Source: Lepidurus packardi
Taxonomy: Eukaryota > Arthropoda > Branchiopoda > Notostraca > Triopsidae
Length of the DNA stretch: 64,000 nucleotides
Direction: 5' to 3'
Assembly: GCA_023053545.1 (NCBI GenBank)
Contig: JAKZAN010000006.1
Span: 3,229,001 to 3,293,000 of the forward strand
Part shown: positions 5,511 to 55,900 of the stretch, one piece after another
Position numbering within the stretch: the stretch's first letter is position 1
How the letters are laid out: every line of letters starts with the position of its first letter
Position numbers and translations under genes: made by a program
Notes under the pieces: generated by a model
Databases searched by the model: none
Seen by the model: only the letters and a program-made list of their open reading frames with translations
Told to the model about the DNA's origin: nothing

Positions 5511-6551
5511 TTATTCCGTATCATCTTCTGCTTTCTTAATTAATCTGCGAGCTCCACGGCCTGGTGGGCCTCTTGGTTTGGCAAACTTGGGCTGGTGCAA
5601 ATTTTTCGGAGGGTGAAGCTCCTCCATAAGGAAAGCTTCGGTTATTTCATCGGAACTTTCAATTTCCACTTTCTTGTCAATGTGGATATCGAGTTCTTTT
5701 TCTAAGACTTCCGTCGTAGGACCTTTGCATGACGAGTACAGCATTCGTTCCTTGATTGGGCTGGAAGACCCTGGCATAGAATACATGAAGACACAGCTTT
5801 GTAAGTAATCTCCCTCGTGGGTATGAGGAAAGCAATACAAGTGATATCCGCCCGATTTTGTACGCGCTAATGAGGGTAAAGTATGGACGGACGTGTTGCT
5901 GGATACCTTTTCCAAGTTCAAGGTTTCTTTTTTGACGTCCAGGCTGAGTTGAACATAATCGTACTTGCCGATTTTGAAATCGATAAGAGCTTTCAATGCA
6001 GGTTCGCTAGGAGGAAAGAATATACCACTGCAAGTCGCTTGACGGGTGCCCACGCCCACATCAGCTCGGTTCTCGTGCTTTTTTACTTCTGCCAACTCCT
6101 CCTCAGCATTTGTCAACGGAGCAGGCGACGCCATGGAATGGAGATGATTCTTATAATATGTAATGGTTAGTTCATCCTTGGAGGAACAGAAAAGCTCATT
6201 CTTGATAAAGGAATGACCAAACTCATTCTTCAAAGTGGCTTTGGTGGAAGCATACAACATCTTCTCTCTGACAGGGGCAGAATCTGGAGACCAGCTGACT
6301 AGTAGCCATTCGTAACCACCAGAGTTTGACGAATCTAATCTAAACAACAAATACGCAGGTTGAGCGTCTTTAATTAACGATTGTAGAGTTCGAAAATCTT
6401 CTTCCCAGTTTCCTTTTGGTTTGCCGCTGCAGTCCAGTGCTAGTTCTTCGTTAGTTATGGAAATTTTGAAATATCTAACAGAGCCATCGCGAAATTTGAT
6501 AAAGAAGTCTTGTAGTTCTTTATTCGCTTTAATGCCTGTTTGATGCGACAT
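5511..6551 (-). CDS. twf: twinfilin, actin monomer- and capping protein-binding
   Basis: 346 residues in one uninterrupted frame. An in-frame ATG ten codons upstream exists, but MSHQTGIKA is the conserved twinfilin start, so the inner ATG is chosen. Residues about 1-140 and 175-315 are two ADF-homology domains, recognised by YLLFRLDSS, YEWLLVSWSPDSAPVREKML, then EGDYLQSCVFMYSMPG and IKERMLYSSCK. The tail FAKPRGPPGRGARRLIKK is the family's capping-protein-binding end. Twinfilin sequesters ADP-actin monomers, caps and depolymerises barbed ends and binds capping protein in the cytoplasm. Length matches the usual 340-350. It is intronless here, which is unusual beside multi-exon neighbours and could mean an old retrocopy or complete intron loss; the frame is intact, so it looks functional. 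It shares a short head-to-head promoter region with the snoRNA host gene. Confidence 0.96.
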   Translation of the reverse strand: MSHQTGIKANKELQDFFIKFRDGSVRYFKISITNEELALDCSGKPKGNWEEDFRTLQSLIKDAQPAYLLFRLDSSNSGGYEWLLVSWSPDSAPVREKMLYASTKATLKNEFGHSFIKNELFCSSKDELTITYYKNHLHSMASPAPLTNAEEELAEVKKHENRADVGVGTRQATCSGIFFPPSEPALKALIDFKIGKYDYVQLSLDVKKETLNLEKVSSNTSVHTLPSLARTKSGGYHLYCFPHTHEGDYLQSCVFMYSMPGSSSPIKERMLYSSCKGPTTEVLEKELDIHIDKKVEIESSDEITEAFLMEELHPPKNLHQPKFAKPRGPPGRGARRLIKKAEDDTE

Positions 6552-6791
6552 AATTACAGTTCTTCGTATGTCAAAAATCACTCACGAGATCTCTTCGCAC
6601 TATTTTTGTCCTTTTCAAAGCGTCATCAGCTCATCGTCATCCTAAATGGAGCTCCTAACCGCTCTCACCGGATCGAAGGACAAGTCGCCCGTCGCTTGTT
6701 ACCAGCTCCCCACCCTACATATATCAGCCTGAACATCAACGGCAACTTTCTTTCTCTACAGTGGAGTGGTGGTACGTTGACGCTTTGAAAG
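6552..6791. promoter_or_regulatory. bidirectional promoter and 5'TOP-like start (exon 1) of the snoRNA host gene
   Basis: Less than 200 bases separate the twinfilin start codon from the probable start of the snoRNA host transcript, so both promoters must lie in this interval. A pyrimidine run, CTTTCTTTCTCT near 6747-6758, resembles the terminal oligopyrimidine start of snoRNA host and ribosomal protein genes. Exon 1 would then run to 6791, where donor gtaagt follows. No TATA box is obvious. The exact start base is inference. Confidence 0.55.
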
Positions 6792-6979
6792 GTAAGTTTC
6801 GTTTTCCCTTCCAATCTTTAGTTGTGTATGGCATCGGTAAAATATAACTTTGTTATTTGATTAGCTTGATATTCTGCAATATTCTGGTTTAAAGTTTTGT
6901 GATTTATTTAAATAATATCCACTGTTTAACGAAGTATATTTTATCGTGCCACCACGCTAACGCTTTGTTGACTTCGGTC

Positions 6980-7052
6980 ACGACATGATGTGCATTCCTA
7001 GCTCACACTGAAAAGCTGTGATGTACCTTTTTACCTACATTCTCTGAGTATC
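6980..7052 (+). ncRNA. SNORD29: box C/D snoRNA, U29 (SNORD29) homologue, host intron 1
   Basis: C box ATGATGT 6985-6991, D' box CTGA 7008-7011, C' box TGTGATGT 7017-7024, D box CTGA 7044-7047. The D' guide CCTAGCTCAC pairs with GUGAGCUGGG of 28S rRNA over ten bases with one G-U pair; the fifth base from the D' box faces the A of GUGA. CTAGCTCAC is also the guide I recall from vertebrate U29. The intron runs 6792-7120. The second guide (before D) was not assigned. The terminal stem is weak. Confidence 0.82.
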
Positions 7053-7285
7053 AAATACATCGTTTTCTGTTCCGTGGAAATTTGAGATATTGGCCTCTAA
7101 TTGCTGTGATTTCCGTGCAGGTTGCCTTGCTCGATTTGGACTTCAGAACTTTGGGTGAAGACCATGGCATGCCAAGTTAACGTTCAAGAAAGAGACGCGT
7201 GGTTTTGCAGAAGTATTATGCGCCACAAAGTTTGATGGACTAAGATGTCATAAAAGTAAGAATTTTCGGAATTTGATTAATGTTT

Positions 7286-7357
7286 CTAACATGAAGAGTC
7301 TAGTCTCGTTCGTATGAAAGCTTGTCTTTTTGATTCCAGCATTACTTTCTGATTTAT
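7286..7357 (+). ncRNA. box C/D-like snoRNA, U30-like, host intron 2
   Basis: Guide AGTCTCGTTCGT (7302-7313) is a perfect 12-base complement of 18S ACGAACGAGACU. Counting five bases from a D'-like ATGA (7314-7317) points to the second A of CGAAC, which agrees with the site I recall as 18S A1383, assigned to U30. D box CTGA 7349-7352. The C box is poor: ATGAAGA at 7291-7297, one base off RUGAUGA, and the terminal stem is weak. The guide is convincing; the box structure is the least certain of the six. Intron 7256-7419. Confidence 0.6.
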
Positions 7358-7516
7358 TTCATAACAACTTATATTTGGAAACGCAAAACTTAGGATCCTC
7401 ATTCTTGTTTCCTTGTTAGATTCCTGCGTCTACAGTTATGGATTTTGGATGTAGTTGCTTCAGGAGAAGAAAATTCGAAGCATTGGTAAGGACCACGTTT
7501 TTTGTATGCTTAAAAT

Positions 7517-7590
7517 TTAGCCTATGATGTTCGAACAAGCATATGTCAGATAACCGAAAGGTATATGAAGTCAACCTTGACTGAGGCTTT
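7517..7590 (+). ncRNA. SNORD27: box C/D snoRNA, U27 (SNORD27) homologue, host intron 3
   Basis: C box ATGATGT 7524-7530, D'-like CAGA 7547-7550, C'-like ATGAAGT near 7565, D box CTGA 7581-7584. Terminal stem AGCCT (7519-7523) pairs with AGGCT (7584-7588). The guide ACAAGCATATG (7535-7545) is a perfect 11-base complement of the 18S 5' end CAUAUGCUUGU. The fifth base upstream of D' faces the second A of CAUAUG, which is A27 in human numbering, the known U27 site. Best supported of the cluster. Intron 7486-7667. Confidence 0.92.
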
Positions 7591-7773
7591 CTTATTGGTT
7601 AGAAAGAGCTAATAAGCTCATCAAACTTTCCTTAAACAAATATGTACTAAAATCAATTTATTTGAAGGAAATTGTCTGACGTTATTTCTGGATCCAGTTG
7701 AACGATGCGTTATCTTGCTGATTCTACGAAATAAGGTAGGTCAAAACTATCTTTAATATACTCATAATAAGTA

Positions 7774-7840
7774 GTTTCTATGATGATTTTTGTTATCCCT
7801 GTCTTATCAGAATTGCAGAAAATTTACACCTGATAAAATT
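7774..7840 (+). ncRNA. box C/D snoRNA, snR38-type, host intron 4
   Basis: C box ATGATGA 7780-7786. Guide GTTATCCCTGT (7792-7802) is a perfect 11-base complement of 28S ACAGGGAUAAC, the conserved peptidyl-transferase-region site that I recall as the snR38 target (yeast G2815 / human G4362). It is followed directly by a degenerate D' (CTTA 7803-7806); the fifth base back faces the second G of GGG. D box CTGA 7830-7833. The external stem is poor. Intron 7736-7907. Confidence 0.8.
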
Positions 7841-8033
7841 TAGTTTTGTGTAATAATGTTATATAAATTTGACTGTTTGATATTGATTTTACTTTCTTGC
7901 TGAATAGAACGACCCACGGCATGTGGCTCCTCGCCCGAGGGTGTTACCTAAGGTTTGGTATTCCGTTATGGACATCGTGTCGCCTTAAACCTCAAACTAC
8001 TAGTAAGTTCAAACATACTTTCTGCATACTTTC

Positions 8034-8110
8034 TTTTTCTATGATGAGTTAAATTTTTATGTACCGACCCAGTCTGAGTGCTTTGATTATACTATCCCAA
8101 CTGATCTTAC
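8034..8110 (+). ncRNA. SNORD31: box C/D snoRNA, U31 (SNORD31) homologue, host intron 5
   Basis: C box ATGATGA 8041-8047, D' box CTGA 8074-8077, C'-like TTGATTA 8083-8089, D box CTGA 8101-8104. The D' guide ATGTACCGACCCAGT (8059-8073) complements 28S ACUGGGGCGGUACAU at 14 of 15 positions. The fifth base faces the second G of ACUGGGG, matching the U31 site recalled as 28S G4166 (yeast G2619). Intron 8003-8173. Confidence 0.88.
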
Positions 8111-8261
8111 CTCATCCATTGTGTTTTAGTGGTACTGTTTCTGCAGCTTGCTAATTTTGTGTTCTTATTTTAGGTTTGACCTGTTCTTTTATCACTGAAG
8201 CATTCGTTTGTCGTTATCTTATACTGAGGTTTGTTCATTAATTTTTTTTATTCTTCTTTGC

Positions 8262-8356
8262 ACGAACCTGATGATAAAGTCTTCAATGAGCAATATCTGT
8301 AAAACAGAATTGCATCCTTTGATTTTTTTTATGACTTGCCCTAACTGACGGTTGTT
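8262..8356 (+). ncRNA. box C/D snoRNA, 18S G601-type (SNORD103-like), host intron 6
   Basis: C box CTGATGAT near 8268-8275, D box CTGA 8345-8348, and a terminal stem AACC (8265-8268) with GGTT (8350-8353). The guide GACTTGCCCT (8333-8342) is a perfect 10-base complement of 18S AGGGCAAGUC just upstream of the universal GCCAGCAGCC. The fifth base from D faces the second G of GGG, which I place at human 18S G601, a known 2'-O-methyl site that I recall for SNORD103. The two bases next to the D box do not pair. Intron 8229-8419. Confidence 0.65.
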
Positions 8357-8575
8357 CGGCTAAGACAATTTTTTTCCTTTTTGCATAGCAGGAACTAATT
8401 ATGTTTATTGTCCAACTAGGTTGTGACGGTTGACGGCATCGCGTGTTCACACGGAGGATAATATCTGCTACATTTCTTGAGCCATGTAAACTTCAGAAAA
8501 TATACCAATTTATTCTTTGAAAGAAGTGAGGCGGAATTTTTATTTCAGCGTTTTATCACGCTTTGAATTAACATA

Positions 8576-8637
8576 GCTTTGACGTAAATTTATTCGGGAA
8601 TCGTGGAGCTTTGACAAATATATTCGGGTATCTTGGA
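8576..8637 (+). repeat. imperfect tandem pair, unit about 31 bases
   Basis: Two adjacent copies both beginning AGCTTTGAC and ending TTGG or GTGG, with ATTCGGG in the middle (8576-8607 and 8608-8637). They differ at a few bases and by a 2-base length change. They lie just after the last visible snoRNA host exon and could be in its 3' end or in spacer. Confidence 0.6.
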
Positions 8638-8840
8638 CCTCCATTCACGTGAGCAAGACCCTAAACTTACTGATAGATTTTCACACATCACCAGTCACGA
8701 TGGACTACCTACAATTAGGCAAGTCTTTTCGCGAAGAAGGTACGACTTTAGGTCGAGGAATGCGTATAGAAATTACAATAACTGAGAAATAGATTTACAA
8801 AGAACGTTGGGATATTTTTTAGTTAGTGTCACGAACTTGT

Positions 8841-8855
8841 CCCCCCCCCCCCCCC
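8841..8855. repeat. C15 homopolymer
   Basis: Fifteen C in a row on the + strand. It is one of five C/G runs of 14 or more in the window. Confidence 0.95.
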
Positions 8856-9562
8856 ATCCTTTTTGGTTTGGCGTTTTTTCTGTCCCTAGTCCCCTACCCT
8901 TCATGAAAGTGACTTCCTCGTCACCAGGAATACGTTTATTACAAACGGTATAAAAAGGACCTTATGAAGTAGTCTGTAGCAACGAGTGCTTTGCGTAAGA
9001 GAAAATTGGTTAATTTAACCAGACCACCACAGTGTGAAGGTTTAACTACAGGATAATTAATCAGAAAATTAGTTCCATGAAGATGAATTGCTGGGCTATG
9101 ATCCCAGACGTCCCCCTTGTTGCAGTGTTCTTGGTCTTTCAAAAAACATAAGATCAATCGGCGTTGACCATAAATTGGCAGGGATCGATTTTTCGGGAAG
9201 TTTCAACACGTTGGTGACGCTGTTCGAAAAATGATCGAAGATATATGTGCTCCGGCAAAGATCCGGAGCACTGCTCACGTAAACACAGCTTAGATTACAT
9301 TACGTCCCATGAGATGGCGTTTGGCGCACCAAAACGAACTTAAAAACGAATAACTTCTTACTTCTACTTGTAAACCAATATAGAAGCCACGCAAATAAGA
9401 AAAACTTGTACACAACTTTTTCAATAGATTAAGTGAATGCTTTCAGATAAAAAAAAGGCTGTATTACGTTAAGTTTATCACATGACTACATAGTTTCTTG
9501 ACGCATTTTCGGATGACATCCACAAGTTGTCTGCTTCGGCCATTTAGGTGCTCCTTTTGTTT

Positions 9563-12540: not shown

Positions 12541-13047
12541 GGCTCTAGTTACCACGGGTAGAGTCTTCTTCCGCAATTCCATATCGTGCTTATCTCGATT
12601 TCCAGGTCTTCATGTTTGGAGATCTTTTCTGTATGTTTCAACATGATGTTCGAGTCATGAGGGACAGCGATGTCAATTAACAGGCAGGTTCTCCCTGTCT
12701 TATCATGTAGCACTATGTCTGGGCGGTTTGCTGTGACTGTTCTATCAGTTATTATTGGGACATCCCATAGAACAATGACTTCGTTGATGTTCTCAACTTT
12801 CTGTGTCTGGTGTTCATAATATTTTTCCGCCACGTGCTTCCCCAGCTTCTTACATATACCCCAGTGAACATAGCCGGCAACGCTACTGTGTCGTATGTAT
12901 TCATTCGATGCAAGTGCAGTGCAGCCCGCGACAATGTGACTTATGAGCTCTTCCGCATGGTTACACACTCTGTATTTGTTATCAACATTTTGCTTCAGTA
13001 TGTTCTTTTGGTGGTACCTTCTCTTGAGTGCTTAGTTTTGAGCTGCT
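12524..13047 (-). mobile_element. 3' fragment of an R2-type LINE (restriction-like endonuclease domain)
   Basis: The main frame (about 12549-13042, including codons upstream of the first start) begins ALKRRYHQKNIL and shows the CCHC finger (VCNHAEELISHIVAGC). It then shows the restriction-like endonuclease core WDVPIITDRTVTANRPDIVL followed by LLIDIAVPHD; the PD...D pair plus a later Lys is the PD-(D/E)XK signature of R2/R4/NeSL-group LINEs. The frame ends at 12549, but a one-base shift continues the family's next motif as KTLPVVTRALGKI into the A-tract at 12528, so there is a frameshift. The reverse transcriptase half is absent upstream, where a stop and a trinucleotide-rich stretch take over. 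No poly(A) tail is visible. Dead, truncated copy. Confidence 0.8.
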
Positions 13048-52900: not shown

Positions 52901-55900
52901 GTTTAGCTGGTTCGATTCCAATGGTATATAAGGCCTGTGTTGTCCCCTTGGCTTTTATTGTTACTCGTGCTGAACCAAAAACCCACGCGAGGAAGGCAAA
53001 ACAAGCGTATAACCAAGACACCAAGGCTTTAGTCAGCAAAAAAGTGCAAAAGAGTTTTTTTTTCTCCTTTGCCCTCTTTTGCTGCCATCGAAGTAGAGCA
53101 AAGGACGGAAGTCCCGATTATCACTACTGATTGGTATATTTCTTTCATAAAGAAATGTAAGCCATCGAACCTTTCCTGGAGGCAACGAGGGGCCAGCTTC
53201 TTGGCTTCCCCTACTTGCGTGGTGGGTCTTACCTGGCATGAATGAACGAGCGAGGACGGTTAAAAGTCATTAACAAAACCCAGCGAAAAAAAAATGCAAT
53301 AAATTTGTATATGGAAAGTTAAGGAGAGCCATTCGAAACGAATTGTTCTAGAGCTTTGAATGTGCTTGTAAATAAAAATATGTATGGATAAAAATTGGAG
53401 TTATTAATTTTCCAATTCTTCCTTTCTAGATGTCGCACAGGTTGGCAAGGTCGATTATGCGATCAGTGTATTCGGTACCCGGGTTGCTTGCACGGTACTT
53501 GCCAGGAACCTTGGCAGTGCAAGTGCAACGAAGGCTGGGGTGGTCTGTTCTGCAACCAGGACTTGAATTACTGTACCAACCACAAGCCGTGTCGCAATGG
53601 CGCCACTTGCCTTAATACCGGCCAAGGTTCTTACACGTGCACCTGTCCGCCTGGCTTCACGGGCACCAACTGCGAAATCGTATTGGATGACTGCACCCAC
53701 CATCCGTGCCTCAACGGCGGGATGTGTACCGGTAGTACCGGGACCAATGTCACCTGCCAGTGCCCACCAGGTTTCCATGGGCGTCGATGCGAAACTTCGG
53801 CCCAAACCTGCCAAGATGCCCCATGTCTTCACGGGGCGACTTGCTTGGACACACCGGAAGGATACATGTGTCTTTGTCCAGCTGGCTTCGATGGTATCAA
53901 CTGTGGACATCAAGTGGACGATTGCGCCATCAACCGCTGCCAAAACGGCGGCTCATGTATCGACGAAGTTTACGGCTTCAAGTGTATTTGCCCTGCGGGC
54001 TACACGGGCGAACTTTGTCAAACGGACATCAATGACTGCTCCAACAATCCTTGCCTCAACCAAGGGAGTTGCGTCGACATGGTCAACTCATTCCGCTGCG
54101 TGTGCGTACCGGGCTTCGTGGGTTCTTTATGCCAAACCAATGTAGACGATTGCTTAACCAAACCGTGCGCCAACGGCGGGCTCTGCCACGATCTTACCAA
54201 TGACTACAACTGCACCTGCAAGCCGGGTTTCACGGGCAAAGACTGCAGCGTCGAGATCAACGAATGCGCGCCGAATCCTTGTCGCAACGGAGGTACGTGC
54301 TTAGATCGCGTCAACGAGTTTGAGTGTCGGTGCGCCCAAGGTTACGCTGGTCGTATCTGCGAACGATTCAGTCCGGATCTGTTCCAACAATCCCCCATGT
54401 CGGCAGTCGTGTCGTCCAACAGCCCAGACCATGGCGAAAATGCCCCTTTGACCACGGAGCAAGTCGTTCTTATTGCTACTTTCTCCACCGCTGTGCCTTT
54501 CCTGGCTCTGGTGTCTTGTGTGGCAATCATGATGATGAAACGTCGCCGGAGACGCGCCCAAAGCAAGGCGGATGAAGAAGCACGTCGACAAAACGAGCAA
54601 AACGCGGTGCATCAAATCAGCGACAAAATGGACTCGTACGGAAAGGAGCACCGCATAGTCAACGCGTTAGATTACCCCAAGTCCAAGTGTGTCAACGCTC
54701 ATCCCCATGGAGACAATGTTGATCCCGAGTACATGGCGAAAGAGCACGTGTATACCACGCTGCCTCAACGGACCAAAATGCTCTCTTCAACTACCACAAA
54801 TAAAAACTACCATCACCCCGCAACATCCTCTTTCAAGTCAGTGAACACTAGCAGTACAGTGCCGTGTCACCGAGTGTCTGTCGTCAGTACCGCAGATAAA
54901 TTAGATAAAGACTACGATAGTGTACATCGATCAGCCCCCTTGGATAACAGATTACTGGACAACAGCATTTATTGCAATCCTAGGTAAGCTAAAAGCAAAT
55001 TCCCTATAGAAATGGTCTTATTTCCTTTCCGTAACGTTTCTCCTTCACCTCTTTTTTTTATTTCTTAAATAAATTCACAACTATTACCCTGACCTTACTC
55101 AATAGCTTATTGTTCTAAAAAACTTTCGGCTAACAAGAAAAGTAAGCCAAAGGACTTTAGCACTTTCGAGTTCGGGTTCCCACGCCAACCAAACAAACGA
55201 GTTCGTCGGGAATAGTGGCGAGGGCCCCCGAACGTCGTCTGATAGTCTCCTCGTTTTTATGGCATTGTTGTACCTTTCATCCCGCTAGGTAATTGGCTTA
55301 ATAAGGACAACGCGAGGGGGGAAAATAAAACAAAACTTGCGAGCCTATAAAGACGTTGGGTAACTTAGGTCGAGGAAAAGGAATCTAGGATTAAACGTTA
55401 CGCGACCAGCAGTTTGCCATTAGCATGGCTATATGATTGAACGTAACGATTGCAGAAACTTCCTTTCGCGTTAACAAACCTAACTTTTTATTTTCCTTTG
55501 ACTTTTTTTTATTTACGCGTCATTTGTGCTAAATTGATTAGCATCGTGTATGAGATTATATCTTCGTAACTAGGAAAGCTAAGTATGCTGATGTAAAACC
55601 GTTGTCTTCGGGATAGCAAGCCAACTGATTTCTACCGGTTTTTACTTGGCACTTGGCGGATTTTTAGCGACGAGGATGCGACCCTCAAGTAACGCAAAAA
55701 CAATAGCTTGGTTCGCTGCTTGGCGCGGGAAGACGATGACTGGGCAAACTTAAAGTGTCCGAAGAGCGTGAGATTGCATGCTTGGCTAACTTCTCTTCAG
55801 ATTCTTGCTCAAAATCTCTTAAACTCTGTGCCGACTGACTTATTCCGTCGTCCGCCTCATCCGAAAACCAGCAAACCTGTAAAGCTAATGACTCTCAACT

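Follow-up and report, generated by a model that had tools for sequence, protein, structure and literature searches.

A Probable UHG-Type Non-Coding Host Gene with Six Intronic Box C/D RNAs in Lepidurus packardi

Introduction

The closest described counterparts of the gene treated here are vertebrate UHG/SNHG1 and fly Uhg1, non-coding hosts of small nucleolar RNAs (snoRNAs). In vertebrate UHG, U29, U30 and U31 stand in succession from 5′ to 3′; fly Uhg1 carries U27, U29, U31 and snR38, has several copies of each kind and, to our knowledge, has no U30. According to excerpts of the published accounts, human UHG/SNHG1 hosts eight snoRNAs, U22 and U25–U31 (PMC7154078; PMC7277114), and fly Uhg1 encodes 16, with five ribosomal RNA (rRNA) positions depending on fly Uhg1 alone (PMC4430873). 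Here we describe an interval (6746–8520, forward strand) in 64,000 nucleotides of the notostracan branchiopod Lepidurus packardi (assembly GCA_023053545.1, contig JAKZAN010000006.1, positions 3,229,001 to 3,293,000); this whole stretch is called the window, and positions are counted from its first letter. We read the interval, with a probability of about 0.93, as a UHG-type, non-coding host gene for snoRNAs. Literature searches on crustaceans, Daphnia and arthropods, and on Lepidurus and Triops, gave no title on a snoRNA host gene among the matches listed, which is weak evidence of absence.

The Lepidurus gene has in common with vertebrate UHG/SNHG1 its non-coding exons, a putative pyrimidine-run start, intronic box C/D snoRNAs and four guides: those for the U27, U29, U30 and U31 sites, in four of its six cargo RNAs, match the human set. 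It differs from human UHG in having six recognized C/D elements rather than eight, none of them assigned to U22, U25, U26 or U28, and in the presence of an snR38-type guide, a guide for 18S-G601 and a U34-type second guide. The U29- and U30-type RNAs are neighbors, as in the vertebrate order, but the U27- and snR38-type RNAs precede the U31-type. All four kinds carried by fly Uhg1 are also found in the Lepidurus gene, both being non-coding arthropod hosts; the Lepidurus gene differs from the multi-copy fly gene in holding single copies and in its additional U30- and U103-type guides. A preliminary description of this DNA had pointed to cargo overlap with both vertebrate UHG/SNHG1 and a fly Uhg gene. 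The vertebrate half of that claim is borne out in print by the excerpts cited above, which for the fly gene cover only the number of snoRNAs and of dependent rRNA positions.

Results

Gene layout

Donor and acceptor signals in the genomic sequence predict seven short exons alternating with six introns, and the reading of boxes places one box C/D RNA in each intron, a layout that reproduces the one first proposed. From 5′ to 3′ on the forward strand the predicted structure comprises exon 1 (6746–6791, 5′ end putative), intron 1 (6792–7120, GTAAGT...GCAG), exon 2 (7121–7255), intron 2 (7256–7419, GTAAGA...TTAG), exon 3 (7420–7485), intron 3 (7486–7697, GTAAGG...CCAG), exon 4 (7698–7735), intron 4 (7736–7907, GTAGGT...ATAG), exon 5 (7908–8002), intron 5 (8003–8173, GTAAGT...TTAG), exon 6 (8174–8228), intron 6 (8229–8419, with a GTTTGT donor; 8419 is the preferred 3′ end, 8388 or 8391 being possible) and exon 7 (8420–8520, 3′ end putative). 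All six introns have GT..AG ends, and five of the six donors read GTAAG or GTAGG.

A putative core promoter (6720–6756, forward strand) consists of TATATC at 6720–6725 and a pyrimidine run, CTTTCTTTCTC, from 6746, which resembles a 5′ terminal oligopyrimidine (5′TOP) start. The run begins 26 nt downstream of the first base of TATATC and is taken as the probable transcription start. Such a start is usual in snoRNA host genes, according to excerpts of two accounts (PMC6954239; PMC7277114). AATATA at 8499 is a putative 3′ end signal; AATAAA was not found between 6400 and 9000. With these ends assumed, the predicted spliced RNA is 536 nt long. Stops break all three of its frames, its longest AUG-started open reading frame (ORF) has 47 aa, and a Pfam search with this ORF gave no match at E up to 0.01. 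Within the predicted borders the exons are thus without evident coding potential, and the interval would be passed over by protein-based annotation.

An E-box, CACGTG, lies just 3′ of the gene at 8646–8651 and is the only exact one in 6400–9000; the Lepidurus gene has no exact E-box near its predicted start, unlike fly Uhg1 as described in the excerpt consulted (PMC4430873). Also 3′ of the gene is a run of 15 C (8841–8855).

The six C/D RNAs are all on the forward strand. They are found at 6980–7052 in intron 1 (C box 6985–6991, D′ 7008–7011, D 7044–7047), 7286–7357 (U30-type; C 7291–7297, D′ 7314–7317, D 7349–7352), 7519–7589 (U27-type; C 7524–7530, D′ 7547–7550, D 7581–7584), 7775–7838 (snR38-type; C 7780–7786, D′ 7803–7806, D 7830–7833), 8036–8109 (U31-type; C 8041–8047, D′ 8074–8077, D 8101–8104) and 8263–8353 in intron 6 (C 8268–8274, D 8345–8348). 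The D box is CTGA in all six. Measured with both boxes included, the stretch from C to D spans 63, 62, 61, 54, 64 and 81 nt in the RNAs of introns 1–6, and from D to the intron end the distances are 73, 67, 113, 74, 69 and 71 nt, that is, 67–74 nt in five of six introns. Mammals favor a spacing near 70–80 nt.

Guides and target sites

Guides were sought by a duplex search against a reconstructed human reference of 18S rRNA and three 28S segments. These segments cover neither domains I and II nor most of the expansion regions, among other large parts of 28S, and targets there would go unseen. The reconstructed rRNA carries the expected base at 38 of 39 published methylated sites (Table 1 of PMC3511168, in the part consulted), the miss being 28S 3848; for 28S the check is partly circular, since the sites under test themselves served to fix the segment offsets, although a single offset fits G4166, G4362 and A4493 jointly. 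Seven guides fall, in the +5 register, on positions of human rRNA that are methylated, with duplex energies from −14.6 to −20.9 kcal/mol. The D′ guide of intron 1 (6997–7006) makes 10 pairs, one of them G-U, at 28S-A4493, the U29 site, and the D guide of the same RNA (7028–7041) makes 14 pairs, three of them G-U, at 28S-U2824, the U34 site. The D′ guide of intron 2 (7302–7313) fits two sites: at 18S-A1383 all 12 pairs are Watson-Crick, whereas at 28S-A3804 two of the 12 are G-U. Those of introns 3, 4 and 5 fall on 18S-A27, the U27 site (7535–7546; 12 pairs, one G-U), 28S-G4362, the snR38 site (7792–7802; 11 pairs), and 28S-G4166, the U31 site (8060–8073; 13 pairs and one internal mismatch). 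In intron 6 it is the D guide (8333–8342) that pairs, with 10 pairs at 18S-G601, the vertebrate U103 site. All six sites named in the preliminary description (U29, U30, U27, snR38, U31 and 18S G601) were recovered in this way; its guide list had missed the U34-site guide of intron 1 and the better 18S-A1383 fit of the U30-type guide. These two additions, together with the occurrence of an 18S-G601 guide in a UHG-type gene, are what is new here.

The U30-type guide pairs better with 18S (−18.7 kcal/mol on 18S-A1383 versus −14.6 on 28S-A3804). Human U30 is listed for both sites in an excerpt that writes the 18S one as C1383 (PMC6466398), and 18S-Am1383 is given to another family in the portion of Table 1 of PMC3511168 that was available. 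A fly preprint, again in excerpt, places human 18S 1383–1668 among the regions with human-specific methylation (PMC13228274); this would be consistent with a loss in flies of the 18S function of U30, and it accords with U30 not being known from fly Uhg1.

The two guides make the intron-1 RNA a probable double guide, with the U29 site and the U34 site as its targets. Human U34 is a separate snoRNA in RPL13A; here the likeness to SNORD34 (U34) lies in the guide TACCTACATT, in the +5 register for 28S-U2824, which is the D-side guide of a U29-type RNA. The likeness of the intron-6 RNA to SNORD103/U103 (HBII-251) lies in its guide for 18S-G601, which we take to be the same site as chicken 18S-G562. 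Chicken U103 targets 18S-G562 and lies in PUM1, according to the excerpt consulted (PMC2653536), whereas the Lepidurus guide for 18S-G601 lies in a UHG-type gene.

The D-side guides of introns 2–5 gave no known site, their duplexes having mismatches or several G-U pairs where there were any, and the D′ side of intron 6 was given no target. The intron-1 D′ region can form ten pairs at 18S position 854, beginning at guide position 5, and the snR38-type guide can pair at another place in 28S, with 14 pairs and one mismatch; both pairings were judged not productive. The U31-type guide has an alternative duplex of 11 pairs, with no mismatch and one G-U, near position 2889 of the reconstructed 28S, in what is presumably a variable region.

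Chance controls

Every tetramer equal to CTGA or one mismatch from it was scored against 40 sites, the 39 published ones within our segments and G601, added as the preliminary description had named it. At a score of at least 24, 7 of the 107 tetramers on the forward strand of the locus have a match, against 3 of 2,774 (forward) and 2 of 2,833 (reverse) in the rest of the window, or 5 of the 5,607 box-like tetramers outside the locus. Among 200 dinucleotide shuffles of the locus, 189 gave no match and 11 gave one (mean 0.055, compared with the seven observed). Lowering the score to 20 leaves the locus at 7/107 (forward) and 1/82 (reverse) and raises the rest to 11/2,775 and 11/2,833; with exact CTGA at this score the figures are 4/14 and 0/5 in the locus and 0/189 and 0/167 elsewhere. 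Leaving out G601 reduces the locus to 6/107, or 3/14 with exact CTGA. Pairing with some rRNA position, methylated or not, is common throughout the window (33/107 in the locus, 648/2,775 and 713/2,833 elsewhere), and the significance therefore resides in guides that land on methylated sites. The printed flanks of the five matches of at least 24 elsewhere in the window have no clear C/D architecture, and we took these matches as chance.

Comparison with Rfam

Rfam was also run in E-value mode, with E up to 10, once on 6600–8700, giving 19 rows, and once each on introns 1, 2 and 6 in a short scan. Half of the six RNAs are listed by a fitting model as well, each below the gathering threshold: snoR38 over the intron 4 RNA (36.9 bits, E 7.7e-4, gathering 45), SNORD27 over the intron 3 RNA (23.8 bits, E 0.51, gathering 52) and SNORD31 over the intron 5 RNA (20.0 bits, E 0.28, gathering 40). 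These models are half of those proposed as a check in the preliminary description. We class the U27-, U31- and snR38-type RNAs as the same in guide function, not as Rfam family members. SNORD34 heads the rows of intron 1 (19.4 bits, gathering 38, not reached; E 0.11 in the short scan and 2.2 in the 6600–8700 scan), and the SNORD34 alignment falls at TTTTACCTACATT, adjoining box D, which is the U34 guide in register.

Over intron 4, TtnuCD17, Afu_328, DdR6 and others were set aside. The rows there include protist and fungal families, some with the snR38 guide, and the printed alignments of the three named have the snR38-type guide in common.

Neighborhood

The twinfilin gene lies upstream on the reverse strand as a single open frame (5511–6551, start codon 6549–6551). 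Over the whole query its ORF has 97% identity to Lepidurus arcticus EOG090X0A90, and it has 83% identity to a Triops cancriformis protein; twinfilin structures are its best PDB matches, and a Cofilin_ADF domain was found. Its start codon is separated by 194 bases from the predicted host start at 6746, in a divergent, head-to-head arrangement, and the two genes may share a bidirectional promoter. Farther along the window, 53392–54987 (forward strand) is a Delta/Jagged-like Notch ligand open frame with EGF repeats and a Delta-like EGF domain, and 12549–13031 (reverse strand) is an open frame of 160 aa that seems to us reminiscent of the C-terminal end of non-LTR (long terminal repeat) retrotransposon proteins. 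ARAGORN found no tRNA in the window.

Discussion

The boxes, the guides and their register, the splice-like signals and the lack of evident coding potential are seen in the sequence; a path of transcription, splicing, processing, methylation and decay is what we infer. RNA polymerase II would probably start near the pyrimidine run at 6746, in a promoter region adjoining the one that serves the divergent twinfilin gene. Splicing of the transcript would follow, and every debranched intron would be trimmed to a single box C/D RNA. The D′ element (D in intron 6) would pair with rRNA, and fibrillarin would methylate, at the fifth position from the box, the ribose of the paired rRNA base, the predicted sites being 28S-A4493, 18S-A1383, 28S-A3804, 18S-A27, 28S-G4362, 28S-G4166 and 18S-G601. 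To these the intron-1 RNA would add 28S-U2824 through its D element. The spliced exons, with no evident product, would probably be degraded.

Several points weigh against reading the interval as a UHG-type host. The boxes are imperfect: the C box matches RTGATGA exactly in two RNAs and with one mismatch in four (among the six are ATGAAGA in intron 2 and CTGATGA in intron 6), and three D′ boxes deviate from CTGA (ATGA, CAGA and CTTA in introns 2, 3 and 4). Terminal stems are weak, with 2, 3, 4, 5, 0 and 4 pairs when up to three unpaired bases per side are allowed, the 113 nt from D to the end of intron 3 lie outside the 67–74 nt of the other five, and the donor of intron 6 is weak. The target rRNA is a reconstructed human sequence, and it is to this 28S that the U31-type guide has its internal mismatch. 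At gathering thresholds Rfam gave no match in the whole window. SNORD29, SNORD30 and SNORD103, the other half of the models proposed as a check, were not among the matches listed at E up to 10; the U29-, U30- and U103-type assignments are made from guide and target. Other models score at similar levels: U43 over the intron 5 RNA (25.7 bits versus 20.0 for SNORD31), SNORD83 over the intron 3 RNA (21.2 bits versus 23.8 for SNORD27) and U13 over the intron 6 RNA (20.0 bits; the short scan gives E 0.014). These three and snoR124 (intron 3) were set aside; judged by the printed alignments, not by pairing of their own guides with rRNA, they seem to fit chiefly at the boxes. In the 3′ half of U13 the alignment passes over eight model positions, but the intron-6 RNA may have a distant relationship to U13.

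The shared cargo suggests descent from an ancient bilaterian UHG host gene; it is because the cargo is shared that we propose common descent of the host, and the basis is the cargo, not the exon sequence. Tentatively, and at somewhat under even odds, the Lepidurus gene could stand near the ancestral bilaterian UHG, given the U29–U30 adjacency, the presence of U27 and U31 in one transcript and an snR38 as in the fly gene. On this proposal either vertebrates would have split an ancestral U29/U34 double guide into separate genes, or the double guide would be a fusion made in arthropods; the U30 guide would have been re-tuned from 28S-A3804 toward 18S-A1383.

The strongest of the competing accounts, which we hold to be unlikely, is that the host is not ancestral and that U27, U29, U30, U31 and snR38 were gathered independently in arthropods and vertebrates, widely expressed hosts being favored in a kind of constrained drift. 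Cargo does move, as with the U34 of RPL13A. Vertebrate U103 is located in chicken PUM1 in the excerpt consulted (PMC2653536), and intronic snoRNA positions are described as not stable across eukaryote evolution in the consulted part of PMC3511168, which also tells against an old linkage. Independent gathering has to contend with an overlap with human UHG in four cargo RNAs out of six, which is unlikely to be accidental: the chance of sharing at least four is 0.0095, 0.0019 or 0.00025 for 40, 60 or 100 families, figures that depend on the assumed universe of families and are to that extent a further caution for common descent. Should the fly set given above hold, the fly gene likewise has four of the six in common, with a chance of 1.6e-4 to 3.8e-6; the argument from flies is no stronger than that set. 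On balance we prefer descent from an ancient host.

As for the double guide in intron 1, its U34-site match could be a chance one, the RNA guiding the U29 site only. For this speak the three G-U pairs among its 14, a duplex that does not reach guide positions 1 and 2, and the lack of a known site for four of the other five D-side guides; we nevertheless consider chance rather improbable here, since SNORD34 is the best Rfam match of intron 1 and the background of 5/5,607 at score 24 over 40 sites leads one to expect about 0.005 matches for six D boxes. That the exons encode a small protein, the snoRNAs being passengers of a coding gene, would have precedent in the many coding snoRNA hosts, such as the fly ribosomal protein genes (PMC13228274, in excerpt), but is very improbable in view of the stops in all three frames and of a longest ORF of 47 aa without Pfam match. 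A decayed cluster of degenerate, non-expressed snoRNA copies, to which the imperfect D′ boxes, weak terminal stems and sub-threshold Rfam scores might point, has the slimmest chance of all, with seven of seven guides intact in the +5 register, splice signals kept, D-to-acceptor spacing even in five of six introns and, as the sole repeat in 6700–8600, a weak 23-nt pair (exons 2 and 7) to which we assign no meaning.

A whole gene of the UHG kind can be missed by Rfam at standard thresholds. With a cargo that overlaps that of human UHG and, on the set given above, that of fly Uhg1, the gene is a case in which linkage does seem to endure within animals. If the gene indeed stands near the ancestral bilaterian UHG, one set of rRNA guides would have stayed in a non-coding host for more than 500 million years, the exons keeping no recognizable message. 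Hosts of this kind would be traceable in arthropod or lophotrochozoan genomes by their guides, not by sequence similarity.

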